Of a stretch of DNA of 11,114 nt, positions 1 through 11,114 are shown piece after piece. Each line of letters opens with the position of its first letter. Within the stretch, counting starts at the first letter, position 1. The DNA lies in assembly GCF_000208925.1 (NCBI RefSeq), contig NW_001915268.1, positions 1-11,114 of the forward strand. The letters run 5' to 3'. The DNA is from Entamoeba histolytica HM-1:IMSS (taxonomy: Eukaryota; Evosea; Mastigamoebida; Endamoebidae). The notes under the pieces were generated by a model. The model had not been told where the DNA came from, ran no database searches, and saw only the letters and a program-made list of their open reading frames with translations. The position numbers and the translations under genes are program-made.

Positions 1-13
1 ATATTTAAGAATG

Positions 14-38
14 AAAATATTGATTTATTCAATATTTT
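14..38. repeat. Terminal hairpin, left end
   Basis: AAAATATTGA and TCAATATTTT form perfect 10-base arms around a 5-base loop. The same hairpin is at the mirrored place in the right TIR (10988-11012). It may be a terminal structure used in end replication, but AT-rich sequence makes short hairpins common. Confidence 0.5.
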
Positions 39-478
39 ATTCAACATAAAATCAATAAAACATATAATTTGATAATACACAAATGAAATAATAAAGAAAT
101 ATACAATACTCAAGAATTAATAAAAAAGAAATAAAAAGAATAAATGAATATAAAAATGATAAATAATAGAAGAAAGAAATAGAAAAAGAACGAAAACAAA
201 TAATATAAAAAGAATATAAATATATAAAAGAATAAAAAGAAAGTAGAAGAAGAATATAAAAATAATAAATCACAAAGATGTAATAAAATAAGAAAAGAAG
301 AAATAAAAAGTGTAATTTTAATGTAAAAATTAGAAATATTCAATAAAAGTGTCTAATTTAATGATGTAAAATGATTAACAATATTTTATTATTGAAAAAT
401 ATTTTACTCTTTTTTATGTTTATTATTTATATGTATAATTTCAACATGATGTTTATTATATATTCAATCATATGTGTT

Positions 479-493
479 ATGTTATTATAACAT
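479..493. repeat. Short palindrome inside left TIR
   Basis: ATGTTATTATAACAT is a 7-base inverted repeat around one central T. It lies where the plus strand passes from the mixed block back to the purine-rich block. A copy is present in the right TIR. Its function is unknown. Confidence 0.35.
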
Positions 494-1096
494 ATAATAA
501 AATATAAAATATAAATGAAAATGATATGAATATATGATATAGAATATAAAAACAAAAGAATAATAAGAATAAATGATAAATAAAACGAGAAATGATAATA
601 AATGATATAATAATAAAATCAAAGTATAAAAGATAAAATTAATATTAATATAAATCAAATAAATATAAATATAAAATGAAAATAGATATAAATGATAATA
701 ATATAAAAATGATAATAATATAAAAATGATAAAGATGAATAAACAAATACATCTAAATAGAAAAGAATATAAAGAAGAAAATCTAAATAATATAAACATA
801 AAAATCATAAAATAAGAAGAATATAATAATATATAGATAATAAGAAGAATACAATGATATAAATAATATAAACAGAGAAATAAATATATAAAAATACGAT
901 AGATAAATAACATATAAAGAAAAGAATAAAAAGAATAAAAATAATTAAATATGAATAATCAAATCATCTATTTCATTAATATTTCATACAAAATGAATAG
1001 AAATGATTATAAAATATAAACATAAATATTTATATATTCTGTATTTATCATACTTTTTATTTTATGAGCAAAATATAATAAATGGAAAATTCTATG

Positions 1097-1116
1097 GATG
1101 CAAATTTTTTTGCATC
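1097..1116. terminator. Hairpin just downstream of the gene ending at 1122
   Basis: GATGCAAA (1097-1104) and TTTGCATC (1109-1116) pair across a TTTT loop, six bases past the stop codon of the minus-strand gene. It is duplicated in the right TIR at 9903-9922. It could shape the 3' end of the transcript. A minus-strand AATAAA (plus TTTATT at 1056-1061) about 60 bases past the stop is the likelier polyadenylation signal. Confidence 0.4.
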
Positions 1117-1121
1117 TTTTT

Positions 1122-1622
1122 TCATTTTTGTAAATTATTTAGATGCATTTTTTCTTTGCTAATTTTCGTACCCGGTCCATAATAATTTTGTTCTTGTAAT
1201 GTCATAGCTTTAATAATTGTATTAATTTGAAATGCTCCACCTGGATAATAGACTTGTTGTTGTAAGTGAGTACTTGAATTAATCATATTAATTACTTTAT
1301 TTATATCTTTGTCATCAGCAGTGTCTTGATCAATATTGGAACGAATATATGTTGGAAACCATGTAGTACTAACAATAGGAAAATTTAATCCTATTTCTTC
1401 TACATTTATTTCACCTATTGAGAGACTAATCAATGCTTTAAATATTTTAACTCTTTTAAAACAATTACAGAATGATTTATAATTTGTGTTATTGAAGAGT
1501 AAATCAAAAAGAGAAGTTGTATATACACCTATTCCTTTATTTAGTTTAACTTCAATTGGGGTATTAAATACAAATTCTACTTCATGTGTATTATTAGGAC
1601 AGTTATTTCTAGAACGGATCAT
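1122..1622 (-). CDS. Hypothetical protein, possibly CRESS capsid-like, 3' end in the TIR
   Basis: A 166-residue protein starting at the ATG at 1622, 33 bases from the divergent gene at 1656. It alternates short hydrophobic and polar stretches, as a beta-rich protein would. The order of motifs recalls the first half to two-thirds of a CRESS-DNA virus capsid jelly roll: a strand-like region near residues 13-35, then SLFD (37-40), a YKSFCNCFKRVKIFK stretch (48-62), YYPGGAF (125-131) and LQEQNYYGPGT (142-152). This is by eye only and weak, because such capsids usually continue for many more residues. The TIR begins at about residue 150, so the last 17 residues are TIR-encoded and may have replaced an older C-terminus. 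If it is not a capsid, I cannot name its function. I see no clear TATTTAAA box upstream. Confidence 0.72.
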   Translation of the reverse strand: MIRSRNNCPNNTHEVEFVFNTPIEVKLNKGIGVYTTSLFDLLFNNTNYKSFCNCFKRVKIFKALISLSIGEINVEEIGLNFPIVSTTWFPTYIRSNIDQDTADDKDINKVINMINSSTHLQQQVYYPGGAFQINTIIKAMTLQEQNYYGPGTKISKEKMHLNNLQK

Positions 1623-1627
1623 TTGAA

Positions 1628-1634
1628 TATAAAG
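1628..1634 (+). promoter_or_regulatory. TATA-like box for the gene at 1656
   Basis: TATAAAG lies 28 bases before the ATG at 1656, close to the 31-32-base TATA-to-ATG spacing of other plus-strand promoters here. It sits between two divergent start codons. Confidence 0.45.
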
Positions 1635-1655
1635 ATGAACTGATTAATTCATAAT

Positions 1656-1880
1656 ATGAGTGCAGACTCCAGTGATTCTAATCACTCGTCTAAATGTACA
1701 GAAGGGGTGTTTAAAGAAAGTACATGGAATATTATCCGTAAAATAGTCATGCTTCTATTATCATGTATATTATTAATAGCGAGTTGTTTCTTTGCATTTT
1801 TTGAAAGTAGAAGACAAGGAGATGTCATGAATGCAGTAGAAGAAGTATTAGAAGTAGTAAAAACTTTAATTCCTAATTAA
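1656..1880 (+). CDS. Small single-pass membrane protein
   Basis: A 74-residue protein of unknown family. Residues 1-25 are polar and Ser-rich (SADSSDSNHSSK). Residues 30-49 form one strong hydrophobic membrane segment rich in Leu, Ile, Cys and Phe. The rest is charged, with a short amphipathic helix-like stretch (NAVEEVLEVVKTLI) at the C-terminus. The long polar N-terminus with a basic R28-K29 before the segment makes a signal anchor more likely than a cleaved signal peptide. It is first in a plus-strand row, with only 12 bases between its stop and the next ATG. It might be a virion membrane, exit or host-membrane protein, but nothing in the sequence proves a role. Confidence 0.72.
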   Translation: MSADSSDSNHSSKCTEGVFKESTWNIIRKIVMLLLSCILLIASCFFAFFESRRQGDVMNAVEEVLEVVKTLIPN

Positions 1881-1892
1881 CTTTTTATTTTA

Positions 1893-2645
1893 ATGTGTTT
1901 GGTTAAGAAGAGAAAACAACGATTAAATCTTCATAAAAGAAGATATGGTTCATATGGATCTATACGATTTAATTATGATGGAATACGAAGAAGTAATCAA
2001 CAGAAATATCATCCTTTTAGTATTTCTAACAGAACTAATCCACTAAGTATTCGTCCTTTTGATAATTCTAGGAGAGTTGATAGTTCAAAATATAAACCAT
2101 TTAGTACTTCTAAGTATGATGGTGGGAAAATATTTGATAAAGAAAAAATAAAGAAGTATATTCCATCTTTACCAAATGTAAAGAAAGTAATTGATTCTGA
2201 AGATTTACAAAGTAAAGTAAAAGGTGTTATTGATGTAGTTGATAATTTTATTGAAGAGAAGAAACCAGTAACAATTATTAAAGATTTTATAAAAGATAAA
2301 TTTTGGGAAATGACAGATGGTAAGAGTCTTTTTGATCCATCTGCTCGTTTAGATGTTTCATTGATTCGAGGGATTGTTGATGGATATAAAAAATATGGTT
2401 CGAGATATTTTACTGATATTGCAAAAGCTTTTGGTGTTTCTTCCATTTTTAATATTAAAGAATTCAAAGAGTTTAATGAGGCAATAAAAGGAAACAATTT
2501 ATATAAATATTTGGAAAAGAGATACAAACAAGGAGATTTATTTGAGAAGAATACTGCACTTGAATTAATTAAGATGGCAATTCAGAATAGACCTGAAATT
2601 GTTGATAAATATATATTTCTACTATTTTTGGAGAGAAAGAATTAG
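1893..2645 (+). CDS. Basic protein with N-terminal KRRYGSYGSI motif
   Basis: A 250-residue protein of unrecognised family. The N-terminus is very basic (KKRKQR at residues 5-10) and leads into KRRYGSYGSI at 15-24. That motif is nearly the same as KRKWGSYGSI in the minus-strand protein at 3776-5272. Residues 25-80 are Ser/Arg/Asn/Tyr-rich and probably unfolded; about 85-250 look alpha-helical and charged. The basic tail could act in nuclear import or nucleic-acid binding, so a structural or DNA-binding protein is a reasonable guess. The frame stops at 2643-2645 while the next frame (-1 relative to it) is already open from 2609, so the two may make one product of about 490 residues. A 5' splice-like GGTAAGAG occurs at 2319-2326. 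Confidence 0.82.
   Translation: MCLVKKRKQRLNLHKRRYGSYGSIRFNYDGIRRSNQQKYHPFSISNRTNPLSIRPFDNSRRVDSSKYKPFSTSKYDGGKIFDKEKIKKYIPSLPNVKKVIDSEDLQSKVKGVIDVVDNFIEEKKPVTIIKDFIKDKFWEMTDGKSLFDPSARLDVSLIRGIVDGYKKYGSRYFTDIAKAFGVSSIFNIKEFKEFNEAIKGNNLYKYLEKRYKQGDLFEKNTALELIKMAIQNRPEIVDKYIFLLFLERKN
2319..2326 (+). promoter_or_regulatory. Possible 5' splice donor
   Basis: GGTAAGAG fits a strong eukaryotic donor. Paired with the TTAG ending at 2645, which follows a pyrimidine-rich stretch (TTTCTACTATTTTT), the intron 2320-2645 would join the two frames in the correct phase. Introns cannot be proven here, and 2320-2645 itself looks coding, so this would be an alternative splice at best. Confidence 0.25.
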
Positions 2646-2647
2646 CT

Positions 2648-3385
2648 TTGTATTATCTTACTCATCCTGAGGATATAAATTTGACATTACCCGTTTTGTA
2701 TAAAGGAAAAGTTATTCGTGTTAACGGAAATTGTTTTAAAACAACACCAGAAGGGGAAAGATGTTTAGATTCATCAATTGTAGATCAAATGTCTGGTGTT
2801 CTTGCTCCTTTGGCTATACAAAAGTATTTGGATGCTATTAAACCGATTAGTGATATTGTTGTTGATAAATTAAATGATTTGACTAATCAACACAAATTAA
2901 TGGATGATGATTTAGACCAATTGAATTTTAGTCAACAATATATTAGAAGTGTATTACCTCCTGAATTATGGAAGAGAATCGAGAATGTAGCATTTGAACC
3001 AAATGTTATGAGAAGATATGAAAGTTTGCAATATATTCCAGTACCAGAAGCTATTAGTACACATTCTTCTGATGATTATTATCATAAAATTCATATTGGT
3101 GCAAGAACAAATAGAAGTGATAATAAAGGTACTATCTTTAAACCATCTGATTTTGAAAGAAGAGGATTACATCAATATTTACATAAACAACCTCATTTTA
3201 ATAAAGTACAAAGCGGACAAGAGAGATTTGAAGTAATGAAGAATGTTTATAAACAATTAAAACAATGGGGAATAAGTGATGATCGTACTGATTATGAAAA
3301 GGTATTACTTAGAGTATCACCTGATGATGATAAAATTAATCATTTTAAAACAATAAATGGAACAGTTAAATTTTATAATAAATAA
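2648..3385 (+). CDS. Downstream frame, probably continuing the 1893-2645 protein
   Basis: This frame is open from 2609 to 3385. The 245 residues given here begin at a TTG codon; the first ATG in frame is at 2789 and would give 198 residues. The stretch before that ATG reads like ordinary protein (YYLTHPEDINLTLPVLYKGK), so starting at 2789 would discard coding sequence. I therefore suspect expression as an extension of the preceding frame, by -1 frameshift in the 2609-2645 overlap, by splicing, or because a base is missing or extra in the T5 run at 2625-2629. The protein is mixed helical, with no domain I recognise. Its stop codon at 3383-3385 touches the stop of the convergent gene, and AATAAA overlaps its last codons. 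Confidence 0.75.
   Translation: MYYLTHPEDINLTLPVLYKGKVIRVNGNCFKTTPEGERCLDSSIVDQMSGVLAPLAIQKYLDAIKPISDIVVDKLNDLTNQHKLMDDDLDQLNFSQQYIRSVLPPELWKRIENVAFEPNVMRRYESLQYIPVPEAISTHSSDDYYHKIHIGARTNRSDNKGTIFKPSDFERRGLHQYLHKQPHFNKVQSGQERFEVMKNVYKQLKQWGISDDRTDYEKVLLRVSPDDDKINHFKTINGTVKFYNK
3377..3382 (+). terminator. Polyadenylation signal overlapping a stop codon
   Basis: AATAAA directly precedes and abuts the TAA stop at 3383-3385 of the plus-strand frame. The convergent minus-strand gene starts its stop codon at the very next base, so 3' processing of the plus transcript must happen within the opposite gene. Confidence 0.45.
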
Positions 3386-3706
3386 TTAATTATCTTCTTT
3401 CTTTGGTTTACTTTCTTCTTCTTTCTTTTTATCTTTTAATACAAATTTAGTTTTGTATTCTTTTTTAGCTACTTCTGGTGTTTTTACTTTTTTAATCTGT
3501 GGTTTATCCCACATTAAGCCTTTCTTTCTGGCTATTCTATACACCAAGCTCCAATAATGTTTTTTTAATCCTTTTAATTCTTCTTCCTTGGTGTATTCTT
3601 CTACAGAGTTTATTAGCTTGACCATTGTGTCTATGAGTTCATCTGCATCCATAGATACAAACTTACCCATAGCATGGTCAGCAATTAAGTCTTTAATGGT
3701 TGTCAT
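3386..3706 (-). CDS. Small charged protein with Lys/Glu-rich tail
   Basis: A 106-residue protein of unknown family, starting at the ATG at 3706. Residues 1-60 are predicted helical (ADELIDTMVKLINSVEEY), followed by a basic linker. The tail has KKKEEESKP at 93-101; nearly the same nine residues (KKKEEETKP) end the 132-residue protein at 8306-8704. A TATTTAAA box on the minus strand (3746-3739) begins 40 bases before the ATG, exactly the spacing seen at the gene starting at 7668, so the two are probably expressed together. Its stop codon abuts the stop of the convergent plus frame with no gap. Function unknown; the tail hints at nucleic-acid or protein contacts. Confidence 0.72.
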   Translation of the reverse strand: MTTIKDLIADHAMGKFVSMDADELIDTMVKLINSVEEYTKEEELKGLKKHYWSLVYRIARKKGLMWDKPQIKKVKTPEVAKKEYKTKFVLKDKKKEEESKPKKEDN

Positions 3707-3738
3707 GTATGAATGATTAAACAGTTCAAAATAAATAG

Positions 3739-3746
3739 TTTAAATA
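3739..3746 (-). promoter_or_regulatory. TATTTAAA promoter box for the gene at 3706
   Basis: Minus-strand TATTTAAA within the wider ATATTTAAACTA. It begins 40 bases before the ATG. The same 12-base stretch and 40-base spacing recur at 7701-7710 upstream of the gene starting at 7668. Confidence 0.6.
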
Positions 3747-3775
3747 TTCAATTTATCTCTTTTCAGAGTATAGTA

Positions 3776-5272
3776 CTAGAACTCATACTCGTACTCATAT
3801 TCTATTTCTGGTTCTTCTACTTCTTCTATATCTTCTTCTATTTCTTCTTCATCTTCATTTACATCAACGTTTTCGTCATTATGTTTAAAGTTATTCCAAT
3901 ATTTTTGTTGATCTTGTATTGTTAACTCTTTTGGAATGTCTTCAACTCTTAAATCTTCTTCTTCTTGTTCTATTATTGGTTTAATTTGTTCTGGTAGAAT
4001 ATTTTTGGAATCATTTTCTTCTTTCTTTTGTGTTGGTTTATAATTGTGTAATATATCTTTAGTAAGTAATCTATATCTTTTTTCTAATTCATCAACTTCA
4101 CGTTTTCTGTTTTTAACGTCAGTGAAGAGTTCTTTATAATTAAATTTAGAATCAAACTTCTTAACTTCTTTGAGTTTTCGTTCTTTTTTGACAATAACTG
4201 GTTTTTTGATTCTTTTTTCTTCTTTTTCTTCTCTTTTCTCTTCTATTTTTTCATTTGGTAATGAATTATTCATTATTTCATTATTTTGAACTTCTTCTTT
4301 TTCGTTCAATGCTTCATTTTGTGGAATTTCTATTTTTGTTTCATTTATTGCTTCTTCTCTTTCTTGTTTCTCTTCTAATGGTAAGAACTGTTGTAATTCT
4401 TCTATTTTTATTCCTCGTTCAAAATCTCTCTTTTCTTGATATTCATTAGTATCTTCTAAATGATGTTTTCTTTTGGAATTATCTCTATTTTTATCTATCC
4501 ATTCTTTAATAGTATTTCTATTCTCTCTTGGTGGTCTAGGTGGTATAATATTTCTATCTGGTTCTTTTTCATCTTTGTGTATTTCTATTTCTTCCATTTG
4601 TTTATCTTTTATTTCATCATAATCTATATTCTGTACTATTATATCATCTCCTCTTTCTTCTATTACAGGGATTGTATTATCTACTCCTTCTTCTTTTATT
4701 GCATTTTTTAAATTCTCATAATTGTTTTGTCTAATGTCATCTTGTATATCTTGTAACGCTTTTATTATTTCCTTTTTATTGTTAATATTTATTTTCATAT
4801 CTTTTAATAATTCTATAGTATTATTATCATATGTATAAATATTATTTGGATTTTCTGGATCAACTATTGTTTGTAGAGGTAATTCATTTTCTTCTTCTTC
4901 GGTTTCTTGTTCTTTGTTTTCTTCAATGTGTTCTTCATCGATATGTATTTCTTTAGTATATTCTTCATAATCTGGATCATCAAATGCTGAATCTTCTGTT
5001 TTGTTAAATTCTTCATCTATTATGTCTGGTTTATTTACTCTGTCTGGTTCATTGTCTGGATCAAAATAAGTACTAGATTGATAGCTGTCTGGATGTAAAT
5101 CTACATCTTCTTCTTCAAAATATTCATCTTCTCCATTATCTGGATCATAGTTATTATTCATTCCATTGTTAAATGAGTAATCATTATAATTATCATAATA
5201 TTGGTCGTTATGAATACTTCCATAACTTCCCCATTTTCTTTTTAATGCATTTGGTCTATACCAATAGCTCAT
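3776..5272 (-). CDS. Large acidic low-complexity protein with KRKWGSYGSI motif
   Basis: A 498-residue protein, unrecognised. Residues 1-20 hold a basic head ending in KRKWGSYGSI (11-20), shared with the plus-strand protein at 1893. Residues 21-60 are Asn/Tyr/Asp-rich. DPDN-like motifs recur at about 43, 71, 98 and 138. A proline motif PPRPPR is at 244-249. Much of 280-440 is Glu/Lys-rich and coiled-coil-like, and the C-terminus is extremely acidic, ending EYEYEYEF. This is mostly disordered or coiled, as in a scaffold, tegument-like or genome-binding protein. It lies 37 bases downstream of Rep on the same strand with no clear TATTTAAA box between, so it may share Rep's transcript. The long open frame in the antisense of a Glu/Lys-rich gene is a composition effect. 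Confidence 0.85.
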   Translation of the reverse strand: MSYWYRPNALKRKWGSYGSIHNDQYYDNYNDYSFNNGMNNNYDPDNGEDEYFEEEDVDLHPDSYQSSTYFDPDNEPDRVNKPDIIDEEFNKTEDSAFDDPDYEEYTKEIHIDEEHIEENKEQETEEEENELPLQTIVDPENPNNIYTYDNNTIELLKDMKININNKKEIIKALQDIQDDIRQNNYENLKNAIKEEGVDNTIPVIEERGDDIIVQNIDYDEIKDKQMEEIEIHKDEKEPDRNIIPPRPPRENRNTIKEWIDKNRDNSKRKHHLEDTNEYQEKRDFERGIKIEELQQFLPLEEKQEREEAINETKIEIPQNEALNEKEEVQNNEIMNNSLPNEKIEEKREEKEEKRIKKPVIVKKERKLKEVKKFDSKFNYKELFTDVKNRKREVDELEKRYRLLTKDILHNYKPTQKKEENDSKNILPEQIKPIIEQEEEDLRVEDIPKELTIQDQQKYWNNFKHNDENVDVNEDEEEIEEDIEEVEEPEIEYEYEYEF

Positions 5273-5309
5273 TTTAAAAATAAAAATAAAAGATAAACCA
5301 AAAAATTAG

Positions 5310-6680
5310 TTAATTAATTTCATCTCCATAACGAGGCCATCTTGATGCAAGTTCTTCATCATCTTCTATTGATGGCACTCTGAGTCTTTTTTCTGGTTCT
5401 GGTATAAAGTCATCTTCTGGTAATCTTAATGTTGCTTCAGGATTAATTATAGCTGGAAGTGGTTCTTGTAATTGGAATTCTGAGGAGCTATCTTCACTTC
5501 CATCTTCTTCTTTATCCGGCTGGATATCTTCTTCATCAAACATTTCTAATATGGCTGGATCTAAATCACCATATTGTTTCTTTAATTCTTCTATAGTTTT
5601 TCTAATTTCTTTTGGTCTTTCAAAGAGTGGTTCTCTTGAGTAAAGAACAGCCGTATTTTTTTCGAGCCATTCTAAGTCATCATTTTCTTTAGCTATTCTT
5701 TTCATCATGTCCCAGTTTTTGGTGTTCATTACTATTATAGTTGGCAAGCTAGTTACATTAACGTGGTCATATTTTATATTCATAGTGATTGTCTCTCCTC
5801 TTGTTGAAATGAGTGCTTTAAACTCGAACCACTGAACTTCTTTTAAATTTGCATCGTCGAACAGACGAATATCATAATTTTTATATTCATCATGACCATC
5901 AAACATGAAGTGTCCTCTAAACTCGTCCACTTTCATTCCTTTCAACAGGTCGTTTACAAATTCAGTTTTTCCTATTCTGGTATCTCCTAATAATACCAGA
6001 GTTTTTACTCTTTTTTGTTTTGATAATTTGACTCCCTGGAGCCAAGCTCTAGCATTTTTCACTAATATATTATCTTCTTTCCAGGGTCTAAGTTTTATGT
6101 TAATTCTGTTAGTTTGTTTATTATCGTGTTGTTCTCTCCATACATCTCTGAACTTCTTTACATTGTTTAAATACCAGGTCATGCTTGCCTGTCTCAATAA
6201 CCCTTCCGCCTCTTTCAAATTTTCCAATGATAGTGCCTGTTCCACCAGGTTATTTCCCACTTTTCCTTTTATTGCTTCTTCTTTGCCAATTTCGTCAAAA
6301 GTAGATTCTGATCCGTGTTTCTTGTTTTGATTCTTTAGATATTTTATTATCGCTTGAAATGATCCATCAAATTTCTTATGTTCTGTGACTGGAGTAAAAA
6401 ATAGTTTATATTCTATATTATTTATTTTAGCAACTGGTTTTTTATGAACCTTTGCTCTATCTTTTAATTTAAAGAATACATGAGCATGAGCATTCGTTCC
6501 CTTGGTATTACTTGCGGCCAAGTATTCTATTTCAGCCTTATTTGTTTCCGTGGAGCACCAATTTTCCACCATCTGCTTTAATATTGGAGTGGAGAGAGAT
6601 GGATGGTTAGCATCGAAGTTCAATATGAGGAAGCCATGCATTGCATTAAAGGAATAGTATCTATCAAGTAAGCTACTCAT
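5310..6680 (-). CDS. rep: CRESS-type replication initiator: HUH endonuclease plus SF3 helicase
   Basis: A 456-residue Rep that should nick the origin, stay joined to the 5' end through a tyrosine, and unwind DNA in the nucleus while host polymerases copy it. HUH domain: motif I FLILNF (17-22), motif II HAHVFF (65-70, metal-binding H65 and H67), motif III Y114 in IIKYLKNQNK. Helicase: Walker A GDTRIGKT (232-239), Walker B IRLFDD (271-276), motif C TIIVMN (314-319). The stretch between B and C (FKALISTRGETITMNIKYDH) follows the geminivirus Rep pattern. DD in Walker B separates it from parvovirus NS1. Motif III lacks the usual Lys three residues after Tyr. Residues about 350-456 are an acidic extension, making it longer than most CRESS Reps. 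Start: the ATG at 6680, 43 bases after a TTTAAATA box. Identification is by motif; function follows from the family. Confidence 0.95.
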   Translation of the reverse strand: MSSLLDRYYSFNAMHGFLILNFDANHPSLSTPILKQMVENWCSTETNKAEIEYLAASNTKGTNAHAHVFFKLKDRAKVHKKPVAKINNIEYKLFFTPVTEHKKFDGSFQAIIKYLKNQNKKHGSESTFDEIGKEEAIKGKVGNNLVEQALSLENLKEAEGLLRQASMTWYLNNVKKFRDVWREQHDNKQTNRINIKLRPWKEDNILVKNARAWLQGVKLSKQKRVKTLVLLGDTRIGKTEFVNDLLKGMKVDEFRGHFMFDGHDEYKNYDIRLFDDANLKEVQWFEFKALISTRGETITMNIKYDHVNVTSLPTIIVMNTKNWDMMKRIAKENDDLEWLEKNTAVLYSREPLFERPKEIRKTIEELKKQYGDLDPAILEMFDEEDIQPDKEEDGSEDSSSEFQLQEPLPAIINPEATLRLPEDDFIPEPEKRLRVPSIEDDEELASRWPRYGDEIN

Positions 6681-6715
6681 TGTTCGATGTTATCAAATGA
6701 TTTGTTGGACCTTTT

Positions 6716-6723
6716 TATTTAAA
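6716..6723 (-). promoter_or_regulatory. TATA-like box for rep
   Basis: Minus-strand TTTAAATA starting at 6723, 43 bases before the rep ATG, matching the 40-44-base spacing of the other minus-strand promoters. The plus strand of the same bases reads TATTTAAA, but no plus-strand ATG lies about 32 bases beyond it. Confidence 0.5.
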
Positions 6724-6803
6724 TCTCCACGTGTTGTTTATTCATTGTCTGTTTATTTGATTGGTTAATTTATCTCTTTTTGTTATCTTTTCCGGATTGT
6801 TTT

Positions 6804-6825
6804 TGATATGAGGTAATGTATGAGG
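6804..6825 (+). promoter_or_regulatory. Paired operator-like element, copy 1
   Basis: TGATATGAGG followed by a second TATGAGG one helical turn later, in the intergenic region between rep and gene A. A copy matching 20 of 22 bases lies inverted at 7814-7835, just upstream of the gene B promoter. Two repeats spaced about 12 bases apart suit a dimeric DNA-binding protein. Regulator unknown. Confidence 0.5.
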
Positions 6826-6926
6826 CAGAAAATGATTTTTAAACTAAAAAGAATAATAAAAATATAATTCAATTAATTTAGAAATGCCTCTTTAAGTGTC
6901 TGTTTGTCGTGTTGTTTACACGTTTT

Positions 6927-6942
6927 ATTTGTTATTTAAACA
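6927..6942 (+). promoter_or_regulatory. Promoter of gene A (shared 16-mer)
   Basis: ATTTGTTATTTAAACA, identical to 7844-7859 upstream of gene B. The TATTTAAA begins at 6933, exactly 32 bases before the ATG at 6965; gene B has the same 32-base spacing. The ATG at 6943 lies too close to the box to be in the transcript. Confidence 0.7.
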
Positions 6943-6964
6943 ATGGTACTTTTTATTTTATTCG

Positions 6965-7240
6965 ATGTTCCCCCTCTTGTCTAGCATTGTGCAAGATATC
7001 GACGAAACCTGTAAAGGTCTCCTCGAGAGCGATAGTTTAGATTTGGACACCAAGTGTCTGATCTATTCTATCCTCTATTTTATGAGGAGGTTCGAGGAGA
7101 CTCACTATAATTATAGTGATGTATTATTTTATTACCTTACAGGTTTCGTCGATTCTTGCACTAAGGATCAACGTTTTAATAAACTAGGAGGTTTATTAGA
7201 ATTATTAGAGAATTTCCATTTCGTTAATGATTTGGAATAA
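6965..7240 (+). CDS. Gene A: small helical protein in a structured locus
   Basis: A 92-residue protein from the ATG at 6965. The open frame reaches back to 6896, but only through a GTG and across the TATA box, so that part is not coding. It looks alpha-helical and acidic and I recognise no family. It resembles gene B: both begin near the N-terminus with PLLSS, then I(V/I)-acid-I and similarly spaced hydrophobic positions (LIYSILYF against FLYSLVYW). The DNA is unusual: 6989-7161 folds into a nested branched stem-loop with a 27-base-pair outer stem, stronger and more GC-rich than neighbouring sequence. The locus may also work as RNA. An AATAAA follows 40 bases after the stop. Downstream lies the convergent gene at 7321-7668. 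Confidence 0.65.
   Translation: MFPLLSSIVQDIDETCKGLLESDSLDLDTKCLIYSILYFMRRFEETHYNYSDVLFYYLTGFVDSCTKDQRFNKLGGLLELLENFHFVNDLE
6989..7161 (+). ncRNA. Candidate structured RNA or DNA element inside gene A
   Basis: Outer arms 6989-7017 and 7135-7161 pair over 27 bases with only two unpaired bases, both in the left arm (GTGCAAGA-T-ATCGACG and CCTGTAA-A-GG). Inside are a second stem GTCTCCTCGA (7017-7026) with TCGAGGAGAC (7092-7101), enclosing GACAC-CAA-GTGTC (7046-7058) and TCCTC/GAGGA (7071-7088), and the palindrome TCACTATAATTATAGTGA (7102-7119) as another branch. The result is a three-way junction. Its function is unknown: it could be a noncoding RNA, a processing or regulatory fold in the mRNA, or a DNA cruciform. 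Pairing is seen directly; a functional RNA is inference. Confidence 0.5.
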
Positions 7241-7261
7241 TTATTAATTTACTATTTTTAT

Positions 7262-7285
7262 TTTATTTATTTTTTATTTAATAAA
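7262..7285. terminator. Bidirectional polyadenylation region between gene A and its convergent partner
   Basis: Plus-strand AATAAA at 7280-7285 serves gene A, and minus-strand AATAAA hexamers (plus TTTATT at 7262-7267, 7266-7271 and 7273-7278) serve the gene ending at 7321. The 3' untranslated ends would overlap by a few bases. Confidence 0.5.
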
Positions 7286-7299
7286 CAAAATAATATTAA

Positions 7300-7318
7300 A
7301 AAAAATTAAATTAAATTA
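7300..7318. repeat. 19-base repeat at 3' end of the minus gene, copy 1
   Basis: AAAAAATTAAATTAAATTA, identical to 8285-8303, in the same position just past the stop of each minus-strand cassette gene. It supports duplication of the whole gene pair, although the sequence is simple. Confidence 0.5.
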
Positions 7319-7320
7319 TT

Positions 7321-7668
7321 TTAATTATCTTTTAGTACTCTTGGTTTCTTATTCAATTCTCTTGAAATGGCAACTCTTCTTCTTCTTTGCCTTTCAGTAG
7401 CCCTTATTTCAAAAGCCTGTAAAATATCGTCATAGCTGTTCTTGATATTAGAACTTATTTCATAAATGGAATTAACTAATTTAGCCTCTTCTTCCATTAT
7501 CATATTAAATTTATCATCTTCTAAATAAAATTTCTGTTCCTTCTTAAAACAATCTACGAGGTAATCGCAGAAATCCTCTAAAGTGTCTAATTCAATAAAG
7601 TAAATTTTTAGACTAACTATATCTATATTTTCTATTTTCACATTTTCTATTCGGTCTTCGCTGTCCAT
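7321..7668 (-). CDS. Small protein with Arg-rich C-terminus (cassette 1)
   Basis: A 115-residue protein of unknown family, starting at the ATG at 7668. The N-terminus is acidic (DSEDRIENVKIENIDIVSLKI), the middle helical and acidic, and the C-terminus basic, with RQRRRR at 93-98 that could be a nuclear localisation or nucleic-acid-binding signal. It appears related to the protein at 8306-8704: both have an acidic head, then (V/L)KI..(D)I..L, a helical middle and a basic tail. Both follow a plus-strand partner in the convergent arrangement. Its promoter is a minus-strand TATTTAAA starting 40 bases upstream. Function unknown. Confidence 0.7.
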   Translation of the reverse strand: MDSEDRIENVKIENIDIVSLKIYFIELDTLEDFCDYLVDCFKKEQKFYLEDDKFNMIMEEEAKLVNSIYEISSNIKNSYDDILQAFEIRATERQRRRRVAISRELNKKPRVLKDN

Positions 7669-7700
7669 CGTGGTATGTTATATTTCATTCTTTCTTGTAG

Positions 7701-7708
7701 TTTAAATA
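7701..7708 (-). promoter_or_regulatory. TATTTAAA promoter box for the gene at 7668
   Basis: Minus-strand TATTTAAA in ATATTTAAACTA, beginning 40 bases before the ATG at 7668. The same element and spacing precede the gene starting at 3706. Confidence 0.6.
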
Positions 7709-7813
7709 TTTAGATGTCACAGGCATTCAGACAGATGGAGAGACAAAACAGACATTTTCTATTTTTATTTTATTATATTTTTATTATAAGTATAGTATAA
7801 AAGTCATTGATTA

Positions 7814-7835
7814 CCTCATATACTACCTCATATCA
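7814..7835 (-). promoter_or_regulatory. Paired operator-like element, copy 2 (inverted)
   Basis: Read on the minus strand it is TGATATGAGG then TATGAGG, matching 6804-6825 in 20 of 22 bases. It sits just upstream of the gene B promoter at 7844 and about 100 bases upstream of the minus gene's promoter, so it could control both divergent promoters. Confidence 0.5.
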
Positions 7836-7843
7836 GCCATTTA

Positions 7844-7859
7844 ATTTGTTATTTAAACA
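7844..7859 (+). promoter_or_regulatory. Promoter of gene B (shared 16-mer)
   Basis: ATTTGTTATTTAAACA, identical to the promoter of gene A. The TATTTAAA begins at 7850, 32 bases before the ATG at 7882. An inverted copy lies downstream of gene B at 8221-8236. Confidence 0.7.
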
Positions 7860-7881
7860 GCATTAATATAGGTAGCATTCA

Positions 7882-8184
7882 ATGCCTCCTAGAATGAAAA
7901 AGCCATTATTATCTTCTTTGATAAGGGAGATCGGCTTTATAGTTCAACAATTTCTTGACTCGGAAATATCCGAGTTTTGTCGAACATTTTTATACTCTTT
8001 AGTGTATTGGTTCCATATTTGGTTCCATAGATACAATATGAAGTATACCAAAAAGATGTTCGATTTGTTGAACTTTATTATAATTGATTTAAATGCAATG
8101 CTACTTAATAGTCAACGACTTGTTTCGTTGTTGACTTATATTTTACATCGCATTTATATTCTCGATATAAGACATCTTAATTGA
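7882..8184 (+). CDS. Gene B: small helical protein in a structured locus, paralogue of A
   Basis: A 100-residue protein of unrecognised family, starting at the ATG at 7882. It is basic and rich in aromatic and hydrophobic residues and looks alpha-helical, with no clean membrane segment. PLLSSLIREI at 8-17 aligns with PLLSSIVQDI in gene A. A tandem duplication gives WFHIWFHR, from the direct repeat TTGGTTCCATA at 8007-8017 and 8019-8029. As in gene A, the coding region contains nested inverted repeats (7941-8074), plus a separate 10-base hairpin at 8110-8136. Inverted copies of its promoter 16-mer and of AGCATTCAAT flank it. Its convergent partner is at 8306-8704. Coding and structural RNA roles are both possible. 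Confidence 0.65.
   Translation: MPPRMKKPLLSSLIREIGFIVQQFLDSEISEFCRTFLYSLVYWFHIWFHRYNMKYTKKMFDLLNFIIIDLNAMLLNSQRLVSLLTYILHRIYILDIRHLN
7941..8074 (+). ncRNA. Candidate structured RNA or DNA element inside gene B
   Basis: An outer stem AGTTCAACAA (7941-7950) with TTGTTGAACT (8065-8074) encloses two branches. One is the hairpin ACTCGGA-AATA-TCCGAGT (7958-7975). The other is a long arm, TCGAACAT (7980-7987) with ATGTTCGA (8056-8063), extended inward through a G-T wobble and T-A pairs, then TATACT/AGTATA and TGTAT/ATACA. The overall plan is a three-way junction like that in gene A, but with the branches in the other order and different stem sequences. Pairing is seen directly; function is inferred. 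Confidence 0.45.
8110..8136 (+). repeat. Hairpin near the 3' end of gene B
   Basis: AGTCAACGAC (8110-8119) pairs with GTTGTTGACT (8127-8136) over ten bases including one G-T pair, with the loop TTGTTTC. Confidence 0.45.
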
Positions 8185-8236
8185 ATGCTTTTTATTCCTT
8201 TTTATTTTATTATTGTTTAATGTTTAAATAACAAAT
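8180..8236 (-). repeat. Inverted copies of the gene B promoter region
   Basis: ATTGAATGCT at 8180-8189 is the inverse of AGCATTCAAT at 7874-7883, which spans the gene B start. TGTTTAAATAACAAAT at 8221-8236 is the inverse of the promoter 16-mer at 7844-7859. Gene B is thus bounded by inverted repeats. The minus-strand promoter copy faces only very short open frames. Confidence 0.5.
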
Positions 8237-8272
8237 TATTTTATTTTTAAAAATTTGAATAACAAAAATAAA
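8191..8272. terminator. Polyadenylation signals between gene B and its convergent partner
   Basis: Plus-strand AATAAA at 8267-8272 is about 83 bases after the gene B stop. Minus-strand AATAAA hexamers are at plus TTTATT 8191-8196 and 8201-8206, beyond the stop of the 8306-8704 gene. AATAACAAA occurs three times between 8227 and 8279. Confidence 0.4.
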
Positions 8273-8284
8273 TAACAAATTTTT

Positions 8285-8303
8285 AAAAAATTAAATTAAA
8301 TTA
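8285..8303. repeat. 19-base repeat at 3' end of the minus gene, copy 2
   Basis: Identical to 7300-7318 and in the same place relative to the minus-strand gene of the second cassette. Confidence 0.5.
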
Positions 8304-8322
8304 AACTAGAGAGGTCTAGTTT
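8303..8322. repeat. Hairpin across the stop codon of the 8306-8704 gene
   Basis: AAACTAGA (8303-8310) and TCTAGTTT (8315-8322) pair across GAGG and span the minus-strand TAG stop at 8308-8306. An alternative pairing AGAGAGG/CCTCTCT (8308-8314 with 8327-8333) excludes the first, so the two could switch. Confidence 0.4.
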
Positions 8323-8704
8323 TTCTCCTCTCTGGTTTTGTCTCTTCTTCTTTCTTTTTCTTCTCTAATCTATCTAATCTATCTTCTCTTTCTTTTCTTT
8401 TCTTTAATTCTTTCAATGCATTAATAAAGAGAATATTTCTCTTTTTGAATGCTTTAATTTCTTTTTCTATCTCTTCTATTGTTTCTATATTACCTTCAAC
8501 TATACATTTGAAACAATATAATGGATCGATACCTAATGATAAATCATTCCCATTAACTAATATCTTGCACTCGTCTATTATTTTCTTCAAATCCATTTGA
8601 AGGCATATAATATCTGATATCTTCAAGTTTCTCTCTTCAACAACTGTTTCATCTTCACTACCACAGAAATACTTTCCGTTGTCATCTTTCACTGTACTGT
8701 ACAT
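8306..8704 (-). CDS. Small charged protein with Lys/Glu tail (cassette 2)
   Basis: A 132-residue protein of unknown family, starting at the ATG at 8704. The head is acidic, followed by RNLKISDIICL (25-35), which matches ENVKIENIDIV of the 7321-7668 protein in pattern. The centre has several Cys, including CFKC at 64-67, a possible but incomplete metal-binding pair. Residues 75-130 form a long charged helix or coiled coil (KELKKRKEREDRLDRLEKKK) and end with KKKEEETKP, the same tail motif as the 3386-3706 protein. A TATA-like TATTTAAT on the minus strand starts 44 bases upstream. The gene starts beside the palindrome-rich origin candidate, so origin or transcription control is possible but not shown. 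Confidence 0.72.
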   Translation of the reverse strand: MYSTVKDDNGKYFCGSEDETVVEERNLKISDIICLQMDLKKIIDECKILVNGNDLSLGIDPLYCFKCIVEGNIETIEEIEKEIKAFKKRNILFINALKELKKRKEREDRLDRLEKKKKEEETKPERRKTRPL

Positions 8705-8837
8705 TGATTATTGTAATGACTATATCTAGATGGTAGGGTCATTAAATATTAGTATAGTTTAATATTAAACTATAATATTTACTATACTCCTGTCAATGTC
8801 CTATTACATTGATGTTTCCCGTTTTATTAAGGAAACA

Positions 8838-8864
8838 GTTAGTATAATATTGTGGTACAATAAT
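8838..8864 (+). repeat. 27-base repeat with TAATATTGT, copy 1
   Basis: Identical to 8989-9015. This copy lacks the long flanking stem but follows the TGTTTCC/GGAAACA hairpin directly. It contains the inverted repeat TATTGT-GGT-ACAATA. Confidence 0.7.
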
Positions 8865-8972
8865 ACAACACGTCATATGTCCTATCATCAAATTATAGTT
8901 AATTTATTAATAAATTAATCCATTCTATTTCTATTAATAGAATGCTATTACCATTAAATTGTGACATGCAGC

Positions 8973-9036
8973 TGACGTGGCAATTGTGGTTAGTATAATA
9001 TTGTGGTACAATAATTATTATACAATTGCCACGTCA
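8973..9036. other. Origin-like stem-loop with TAATATTGT in the loop
   Basis: TGACGTGGCAATTGT (8973-8987) and ACAATTGCCACGTCA (9022-9036) form a perfect 15-base stem. The 34-base loop contains TAATATTGT (8996-9004), sharing its first seven bases with the geminivirus nick-site nonamer TAATATTAC. The loop can fold further: GTATAATATTGT pairs with ACAATA plus TTATAC around GGT, with ATTA bulged. CRESS Reps nick inside such loops, so this is the best origin candidate. Confidence 0.6.
8989..9015 (+). repeat. 27-base repeat with TAATATTGT, copy 2
   Basis: Identical to 8838-8864, here placed in the loop of the 15-base stem at 8973-9036. Confidence 0.7.
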
Positions 9037-9068
9037 TCAATATGCCACAATGAGTTATAAACCATTTA

Positions 9069-9076
9069 TATTTAAA
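9069..9076 (+). promoter_or_regulatory. Orphan TATTTAAA promoter facing the right TIR
   Basis: TATTTAAA begins 31 bases before an ATG at 9100, the same spacing as genes A and B. That ATG opens only a 17-codon frame (9100-9153) into purine-rich sequence. It may drive a noncoding transcript or be the remnant of a lost gene. Confidence 0.4.
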
Positions 9077-9099
9077 GTAGAGTATTATACAATTATAAG

Positions 9100-9844
9100 A
9101 TGAATAAAATAGCACAAAGAATCAAAATTAGAATGAATATAAGAATCAGATAGAGAAAGATAAGACAAGAAATGAAATATGAAAAGAATGAGATAATATA
9201 GAGATGAAAGAAAAAGGATAAAGAAAAAGGAGAATAATATATAATAGAAATAAAAGAAGAAAAATGATAATAAAATGATAGAAGAAAAATAACAGAAAGA
9301 AAATAACAAACAAATAATGAATAATTAGAATGATAAAGATATATACAAATAAATGAAATAGTTTTATAAAAATAAATATAAAAGATGATAGAAGAAAATA
9401 AAAATCAAGAAGGAAGTAGAAAATGATATTAATTACAATAAAAAATATTATCATTTTCATTTATTAAATAAAATTGAAATATATATTTAATTTGTATTTA
9501 TTTGTATTTATTTGATATTATTCTTTAACTCACATTTGATTGTTTTGTTCATGTTGTATTGATATTTATTTATTTTCTTATATTCTCTACATATTATTTC
9601 ATCAATTCTTTCATATTAATCATTATATCTTTTATCATTATTTATTTTTAATTTTATATTTTTTTGTTCTTCATTCTTACTGTTTTTATTTATTCAATTT
9701 ATTGTAATTATTATTGAAATGAATTACTTTTATTTTATTTTGTTAATTTGTTTTATTTTATCTTGTTGTATTTTATCTTTTTCCTTTATTAATAAATACT
9801 AGTTTTATCTTTTTATTATTTTCATTTGTATTGTTGTTTATTTT
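9100..9844. other. Gene-free purine-rich then T-rich tract
   Basis: From 9100 to about 9420 the plus strand is almost only A, G and some T, like the left TIR in composition. From about 9460 it becomes T-rich. The switch is marked by the inverted repeat GAAAATGATA/TATCATTTTC (9419-9428 with 9449-9458). TTTGTATTTA is repeated in tandem at 9491-9510. Reading frames here give only Phe/Ile/Tyr/Leu strings. I see no gene. Confidence 0.6.
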
Positions 9845-11025
9845 GGGTATGAAAATTAGCAAAGAAAAAATGCATCTAAATAATTTATAAAAAAAGAAAA
9901 AAGATGCAAAAAAATTTGCATCCATAGAATTTTCCATTTATTATATTTTGCTCATAAAATAAAAAGTATGATAAATACAGAATATATAAATATTTATGTT
10001 TATATTTTATAATCAATTGTATTCATTTTGTATGAAATATTAATGAAATAGATTATTTGATTATTCATATTTATTTTTATTATTTTTATTCTTTTCTTTA
10101 TATGTTATTTATCTATCGTATTTTTATATATTTATTTCTCTGTTTATATTATTTATATCATTGTATTCTTCTTATTATCTATATATTATTATATTATTAT
10201 ATTCTTCTTATTTTATGTTTTTTATGTTTATATTATTTAGATTTTCTTATTGTTATTCTTTTCTATTTAGATGTATTTGTTTATTCATCTTTATCATTTT
10301 TATATTATTATCATTTTTATATTCTTATCATTTATATCTATTTTCATTTTATATTTATATTTATTTGATTTATATTAATATTAATTTTATCTTTTATACT
10401 TTGATTTTATTATTATATCATTTATTATCATTTCTCGTTTTATTTATCATTTATTCTTATTATTCTTTTGTTTTATATTCTATCTATGTTATATATTCAT
10501 ATCATTTTCATTTATATTTTATCACTTATTATATGTTATAATAACATAACACATATGATTGAATATATAATAAATATCATGTTGAAATTATACATATAAA
10601 TAATAAACATAAAAAAGAGTAAAATATTTTTCAATAATAAAATATTGTTAATCATTTTACATCATTAAATTAGACACTTTTATTGAATATTTCTAATTTT
10701 TACATTAAAATTACACTTTTTATTTCTTCTTTTCTTATTTTATTACATCTTTGTGATTTATTATTTTTATATTCTTCTTCTACTTTCTTTTTATTCTTTT
10801 ATATATTTATATTCTTTTTATATTATTTGTTTTCGTTCTTTTTCTATTTCTTTCTTCTATTATTTATCATTTTTATATTCATTTATTCTTTTTATTTCTT
10901 TTTTATTAATTCTTGAGTATTGTATATTTCTTTATTATTTCATTTGTGTATTATCAAAATATATGTTTTATTGATTTTATGTTGAATAAAATATTGAATA
11001 AATCAATATTTTCATTCTTAAATAT
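9845..11025. repeat. Right terminal inverted repeat (about 1.18 kb)
   Basis: Inverted copy of 1-1173, pyrimidine-rich on the plus strand. The inner edge is the GGGTAT at 9845-9850, matching GGGTAC on the reverse strand of the left copy. It carries a copy of the last codons of the gene ending at 1122 (the stretch from 9850 reads MKISKEKMHLNNL and then stops), without the rest of that gene. The hairpin GATGCAAA-AAAA-TTTGCATC at 9903-9922 matches 1097-1116 in the left copy. The reading frames on this strand translate to monotonous Phe/Tyr/Ile/Leu/Ser strings and are not believable genes. Confidence 0.93.
10988..11012. repeat. Terminal hairpin, right end
   Basis: Mirror copy of the hairpin at 14-38, with 10-base arms at 10988-10997 and 11003-11012 and a 5-base loop. 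In this copy about 100 further bases follow towards the end of the window. Confidence 0.5.
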
Positions 11026-11114
11026 TCATTCTTTATTCTGAAATGTTTTGTATATTTATTATATTAAATGAATATGATGAATGAATATCAATATTATTGT
11101 TTATTTGATTTTAA
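11026..11114. other. Right-end sequence beyond the paired TIR
   Basis: These 89 bases have no partner at the left end, whose sequence begins exactly where pairing stops. They include half of an inverted repeat, ATATTCATTC at 11022-11031 and GAATGAATAT at 11079-11088. Either the left end is incompletely determined, or the right terminus is truly longer. A third possibility is that the molecule is circular and this is the short spacer between the two TIR copies. No gene is visible. Confidence 0.6.

Follow-up and report, generated by a model that had tools for sequence, protein, structure and literature searches.

The window analysed here is the whole of contig C11 of Entamoeba histolytica HM-1:IMSS (NW_001915268.1; 11,114 bp), and copies related to it were searched for in the assembly to which it belongs (392 contigs, 16.95 Mb). 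It carries a gene-rich element that encodes a replication protein (Rep) resembling those of circular Rep-encoding single-stranded (CRESS) DNA viruses. With a probability of roughly 0.78, the window represents a chromosomal but damaged copy of a large Entamoeba element, either an endogenous virus or a mobile element of viral origin. Its identity as a large endogenous element of the CRESS type is very probable; the kinship with CRESS viruses, which probably holds as well, would run through the replication protein and through a jelly-roll capsid protein present in sister copies.

The Rep gene (5310–6680, minus strand) encodes 456 amino acids, in which the motifs HAHVFF (at residue 65), IIKYLKNQ (at 111, with Tyr114), GDTRIGKT (at 232), LFDDAN (at 273) and IIVMNT (at 315) follow each other in this order; in an alignment of 18 rows, most of the motif residues vary little or not at all. 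Judged by these motifs and by the predicted fold, which agree, the protein is, as the preliminary description of this DNA had proposed, a CRESS-type Rep; it would comprise a putative HUH endonuclease followed by a superfamily 3 (SF3) helicase. In Foldseek searches with the predicted model, the best match among solved structures was the Rep of a redondovirus (Vientovirus), a group with small, circular genomes, and the endonuclease fold appears nearest to geminivirus and redondovirus Reps; adeno-associated virus (AAV) Rep68 and B19 NS1 also match the model, the best matches being CRESS Reps. A sequence profile of the protein retrieved no Rep among solved structures, and its top sub-threshold Pfam match was the HerA-type ATPase model DUF87 (20.3 bits at a cut-off of 23.2). 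All named relatives of the window Rep come from Entamoeba, and the Rep of a sister copy on contig C123 is identical over its full length to E. histolytica CL6EHI_095460.

To the left of the Rep gene, the 5' part of the p297 gene (1174–1622, minus strand; 276–297 amino acids in relatives) is cut by a dispersed repeat after residue 171 of the 297-amino-acid open reading frame (ORF), and the truncated ORF continues into the repeat as far as position 1122. It is followed by p74 (1656–1880, plus strand), a small protein with a hydrophobic stretch recognized by eye and 97–99% identity in the mapped sister copies; by p496 (1893–3385, plus strand), which has a Lys/Arg-rich N-terminus and is split by a frameshift into ORFs at 1893–2645 and 2648–3385, being a single open frame in C174; by the conserved small protein p106 (3386–3706, minus strand); and by the acidic, Glu/Lys-rich p498 (3776–5272, minus strand), which is present on eight contigs. 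The right side holds four small proteins: the conserved p114 (6896–7240, plus strand; GTG start as listed), p115 (7321–7668, minus strand), p100 (7882–8184, plus strand) and the Glu/Lys-rich p132 (8306–8704, minus strand). Of these, p115 and p100 are mosaic between copies, the former with 34–70% identity in five fuller copies and the latter with either 95% or about 32%. The coding region of p114 also contains a strong fold at 7001–7200, the lowest-energy 200-nt segment of the contig (−40.7 kcal/mol). No DNA polymerase, protease, packaging ATPase or transposase had been recognized previously, in agreement with the Pfam scans, in which none was found at cut-off among the ten window proteins scanned (p100 was left out). 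The window had also been taken for a complete element, a reading that was rejected: the gene for a 259-amino-acid protein (p259) and the capsid gene are missing, in addition to the truncation of p297 and the frameshift in p496.

Related contigs with the same gene order, which the preliminary description had envisaged, do exist, although the 1.17-kb inverted repeats found in the window are not their ends. Copies occur on at least seven contigs besides the window, and on five contigs twelve genes are arranged in a single order, p132-p100-p115-p114-Rep-p498-p106-p496-p74-p297-p259-capsid; five other contigs are collinear with the window over the block that extends from the cut in p297 through the Rep-side genes. 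A Rep gene within an insertion embedded in the host genome had been regarded as the contrary case. The window is indeed a genomic copy with damage; its sister copies, however, include fuller ones, and for each of the twelve genes one or more contigs have the frame open. To judge from the sequences, modules are swapped between lineages of the element: pieces of Rep are either 85–100% (C48, C174) or 43–45% (C123, C189, C69) identical to the window Rep, amid nearly identical p74 and p297, and p496 occurs in a long and a short form. Ratios of nonsynonymous to synonymous divergence (dN/dS), computed with a Nei–Gojobori script, are 0.10–0.21 for Rep (defined for five of six pairs), 0.04–0.39 for p106 (20 of 21 pairs) and 0.09–0.28 for p297 (three pairs). 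Two further arrangements were observed, an inverted duplication of p100 and p132 at the start of C48 (1–1760) and, on C239, decayed pieces of the element as an inverted duplicate with several stop codons.

The capsid gene of the sister copies encodes a predicted jelly-roll protein of 507 amino acids with a basic N-terminus, a type of capsid that many, though not all, CRESS viruses have. Its frame is open on five of the eight p498-bearing contigs, absent in the window and fragmentary in C142 and C239. Circovirus capsids and those of small RNA viruses rank first among the matches of its model, one Bufivirus protein appearing at rank 25 among the BFVD matches. Relatives of the capsid are also found on contigs of 1.8–3.7 kb, which could be either small CRESS genomes or mere fragments. 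PHROGs scans of the other element proteins gave weak matches only, PDB sequence searches with the element proteins gave no relevant match, and no relative was confirmed among the IMG/VR viral contigs scanned with the capsid and Rep alignments. Archive-derived clusters contain relatives of Rep (P0019), the capsid (P0030) and p297 (P0044), and some of their longest contigs measure 9.8–10.9 kb; being near the size of the element, these could be free genomes.

A second, distant family was found on five contigs (C88, C82, C72, C86 and C49), its Reps being 22–26% and its capsid N-terminal halves 39–40% identical to those of the first. The Rep frames are open over 550–595 amino acids, with one stop in the match on C72, and the capsid frames over 301–325 amino acids; C88 additionally encodes proteins of 477 and 460 amino acids. 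Within this family, capsid-centred DNA stretches are 96–98% identical, compared to 68–74% for the Reps in protein, and capsid dN/dS of 0–0.04 (ten pairs) indicates strong purifying selection; Rep dN/dS is undefined in all six pairs of four Reps (C72 not among them), dS being saturated. In the central parts of these contigs, which alone were folded, the three best windows per source contained no fold matching the first-family ends in strength. The similar sizes of the contigs (14–17 kb) were discarded as evidence, since the numbering of contigs roughly follows size. Two long contigs, C335 and C348, contain Rep-like open frames of 482 and 491 amino acids with 34% and 25% identity to the window Rep, which possibly represent further families.

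Several observations weigh against this reading of the element and its proteins. The confidence of the Rep model is moderate (69.3), and its helicase part matches porcine circovirus 2 (PCV2) Rep, but AAA+ ATPases such as NSF score equally well. The capsid model is of low confidence (predicted local distance difference test 56.4, predicted template modelling score 0.39), and its match to the PCV2 capsid lies within 1 Z of those to tobacco necrosis virus and enterovirus capsids. None of the element proteins scanned scored above cut-off in Pfam. The dN/dS values of Rep rest on dS of 1.0–2.7, near saturation, and those of the first-family capsid (0.26–1.45, ten pairs) are not clearly purifying. 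Finally, lesions are common among the copies: Rep is interrupted in C48 and C174, p498 in C123, and the p297 ORF stops early in C189.

The Rep-side end of the element lies within the window, at a 32-bp end motif (9046–9077, plus strand) that faces outward at seven ends on five contigs (one end each of C11, C48 and C69, both ends of C189 and C123). Between the inverted motifs, C189 and C123 comprise 10,301 bp (18,597–28,897) and 10,478 bp (9,340–19,817), respectively. Palindromes sit directly inside the motif; that of the window (8958–9051) is a simple hairpin (z of −4.9 over 111 nt and −6.3 over 230 nt) containing, at 8989–9015, an exact repeat of a 27-bp sequence at 8838–8864 (plus strand). 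When 230 nt were folded at each of nine ends and compared to 100 dinucleotide shuffles, z ranged from −4.1 to −19.6, and at five ends (both of C123, both of C69 and one of C174) the fold is a long stem from which two small arms branch (z −14.7 to −19.6). In a fold scan of 26 sources, using 200-nt windows every 50 nt, the top five were two end pieces of C123, C69, C189 and C142. The Rep-side palindrome of C123 aligns to the three others, those of C123 and C69, with one mismatch and four gap columns when flipped, as opposed to 9–10 mismatches and 20–22 gap columns in the same orientation; the two hairpins of C69 are inverted relative to each other and, when read outward, show no difference over 158 bp.

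The inverted terminal repeats of the Parvoviridae comprise AAV-type T-shaped hairpins, in which a long palindrome includes two small internal arms, and occur in flip and flop orientations. The palindromes at both ends of C123 and C69 and at one end of C174 share the T shape, and those of C123 the flip/flop relation. The Rep and capsid models match CRESS proteins first, and the hairpin is followed outward by the end motif and shared flanks, which may set the element apart from parvoviruses. The linear, parvovirus-like plan of the preliminary description therefore stands in part: the 1.17-kb repeats are not the ends, but sister copies have inverted ends of their own with parvovirus-like hairpins, which makes the linear plan the better of two models. 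The gene-rich element is also, as proposed, larger than any known parvovirus.

Linear rolling-hairpin replication is the preferred mode, with about even odds. Rep would nick at the terminal palindromes by its HUH nickase activity and unwind the duplex by its SF3 helicase, and a host polymerase would copy the strand; the T-shaped hairpin may fold back, prime synthesis and be nicked again, as in parvoviruses. Displaced single strands would then be packaged by the capsid, and copies might enter the chromosome through Rep-mediated joining. Copying in this manner would produce hairpins in both flip and flop orientations. What tempers the assignment, apart from the Rep-side hairpin of C189, which is almost lost (z −4.1), is the sequence beyond the end motifs, which is common to several ends and copies. 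About 200 bp are 100% identical at both ends of C189, the capsid side of C123 and C69 (one of these being the query), and at the Rep side of C123 the same stretch is 96% identical over its first 157 positions. Most of this flank is a dispersed repeat, whose other copies among the matches listed are 72–91% identical. C11 and C48 have a different AT-rich stretch beyond the motif, which in the window spans 9078–9844, is 90% identical over about 700 bp to the capsid-side flank of C48 and shows weak similarity to dispersed AT-rich sequences. The shared outer flanks therefore leave two readings: host sequence was taken up and duplicated at the two ends, or the actual termini are located further out.

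The same large CRESS-type virus could instead be circular, with rolling-circle replication starting at a single large palindromic origin located between the capsid and the Rep-side genes; chromosomal copies would be unit lengths cut at the origin and would hence carry a palindrome at both ends. CRESS viruses have very small, mostly circular genomes. In C142, the capsid 5' end, one hairpin and the Rep-side genes follow in a row, a circle-like or head-to-tail junction, and the two hairpins of C123 are direct repeats, which a circle explains too. On the other hand, the end motif is inverted rather than direct in C189 and C123, the hairpins of C69 are inverted and identical over the length given above, and the T-shaped, two-armed hairpins differ from the short stem-loop that characterizes the CRESS origins known. 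Given the shared outer flanks and the single-hairpin junction of C142, the rolling hairpin is assigned no more than even odds, and the circle is the less likely alternative.

A further alternative, which we consider rather unlikely, is a capsid-bearing mobile element that no longer forms particles and spreads within the genome by means of Rep, like a transposon. Copies adjoin dispersed repeats in larger contigs, several genes have lesions, and the first-family capsid dN/dS reaches 1.45, all of which would suit such an element; the capsid frames that remain open on most p498-bearing contigs, the strongly purifying selection on the second-family capsids and the capsid relatives on short contigs speak against it.

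The 1.17-kb inverted repeats, which had been described as bounding the element, are real: positions 1–1173 and 9845–11,025 pair at 98.5% identity over 1168 ungapped positions (18 mismatches), with 18 gap columns besides, at a G+C content of 12–17%. They are nevertheless almost certainly copies of an abundant dispersed repeat rather than viral termini. The left copy (1–1173, minus strand) lies outside the element, with its fixed end GGGTACGAAAAT at 1173; the right copy (9845–11,114, plus strand) is inverted and extends 89 bp beyond the paired part, up to the contig end. A genome search with the outer 472 bp gave 643 first-look candidates, and the 40 of these that were scored, two being the window's own, all had 93–100% identity over nearly the full query. 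At the loci fetched, the fixed end abuts differing sequences. In the window it adjoins p297; in C189, C123 and C69, the outer flanks; in C142, the capsid gene and also p259, the latter recognized by eye, so that this copy of the element is cut at both ends. Further neighbours lie on C250 and on C79, there at a distance of about 1.5 kb from a gene identified by eye as EF-1alpha-like. C79 (1–6000), the contig with this host gene, likewise carries the repeat towards either end, in inverted copies, and thus served as a control for the window. The left junction (1173/1174) is uninterrupted in all six sister copies found (C48, C174, C189, C123, C69 and C142), and on C239 a tblastn match likewise crosses the site; the right junction (9844/9845) is uninterrupted in the single sister covering it, C48, so that this empty site depends on one copy. 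The reading of the repeats as viral termini was rejected on account of these empty sites: the window copy is bordered and truncated by two dispersed repeats that do not belong to it, and the contig ends inside both, a point at which an assembler is expected to stop.

Judged by description, the repeat is likely Eh_ERE1, an orphan repeat of E. histolytica which, in the part of the source concerned with it, is given as 7,160 bp long with 82% AT, 2,221-bp terminal inverted repeats, 777 fragmented copies and an ORF of 369 amino acids (Lorenzi et al. 2008, PMC2657916). AT richness and hundreds of copies, as outlined there, are common to both, and an insertion of Eh_ERE1 would present the same end at both faces. 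Beyond the window, the repeat continues for about 250 bp or more; the 369-amino-acid ORF was not found in a 4.75-kb stretch beside one repeat copy.

That the contig is an assembly chimera, joining unrelated repeats to a copy of the element, is improbable. Thirteen of the 18 mismatches between the repeat copies fall within the inner 640 bp and two in the outermost 466 printed columns, as expected from collapsed repeat reads, but the gene block between the p297 cut and the Rep-side genes has a collinear counterpart on five other contigs, so that a chimera would affect the outer repeat parts at most. A linear virus with the 1.17-kb repeats as telomeres, for which it can be said that the window's two copies are mutually closest (97.9% over the inner 640 bp, compared to 92.5–96.4% in the other 27 pairs among eight copies), is most improbable given the hundreds of candidate genomic copies with differing neighbours at the fixed end, the missing capsid gene and the empty sites, which refute it unless C11 represents a derived lineage of its own in which the repeat was taken up to form new ends.

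Among known systems, the Naryaviridae and Nenyaviridae have small genomes with Rep and Cap only, and genomes of the Oomyviridae are roughly 4 kb. As far as the sources cover them, the former resemble the element in their Entamoeba hosts and in the integration of whole genomes, with Rep and Cap, into the host genome; they differ by description, being circular, from an element of twelve genes and 10.3–10.5 kb with hairpin ends. In the section consulted, Kinsella et al. (2020, PMC7493932) report the integration of whole circular CRESS genomes, encoding Rep and Cap, in both Entamoeba and Giardia. The Lineavirales/Oomyviridae are listed in the relevant entry as linear single-stranded DNA viruses of the Cressdnaviricota with likely stramenopile hosts (International Committee on Taxonomy of Viruses (ICTV) 2025, PMC12451638); compared by description, they share the linear plan within the CRESS phylum and differ in these likely hosts. 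Integrations of CRESS viruses in Entamoeba and linear CRESS genomes are therefore not new per se, in view of the portions cited of Kinsella 2020 and ICTV 2025. Viruses mixing CRESS, parvo- and papilloma-type modules have been described (Buck et al. 2024, PMC11071296), to which the element is akin in its mixed replication and capsid modules; by term search, the main text of that paper does not mention Entamoeba, nor does the main text of a paper on integrated protist viruses (PMC10120064). Among the open-licence papers listed by the literature search, none reports large CRESS-type elements in Entamoeba, nor a CRESS-type element of such size and twelve-gene content with T-shaped hairpins; it is this combination that would be new relative to that literature.

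For annotation, the window teaches that, where a contig has inverted repeats at its two ends, these may be two faces of an abundant repeat rather than virus telomeres. A wider proposal is tentative and, on balance, doubtful: large CRESS-type viruses of two or more families may reside in Entamoeba, those of the first family having at least 10 kb and about twelve genes. They would be linear, have T-shaped, parvovirus-like hairpin telomeres operated by Rep and represent an independent or intermediate route from circular CRESS ancestors to the parvovirus plan. If true, this would show a linear parvovirus plan arising from, or converging with, the CRESS plan. Descriptions of virus-like particles in E. 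histolytica go back to 1972; in the passages concerned, the particles are not tied to a genome (PMC5851034, PMC9973342). It is only a suggestion that the element is a candidate genome for these polyhedral particles, but its sequence would be the thing to look for in this puzzle.

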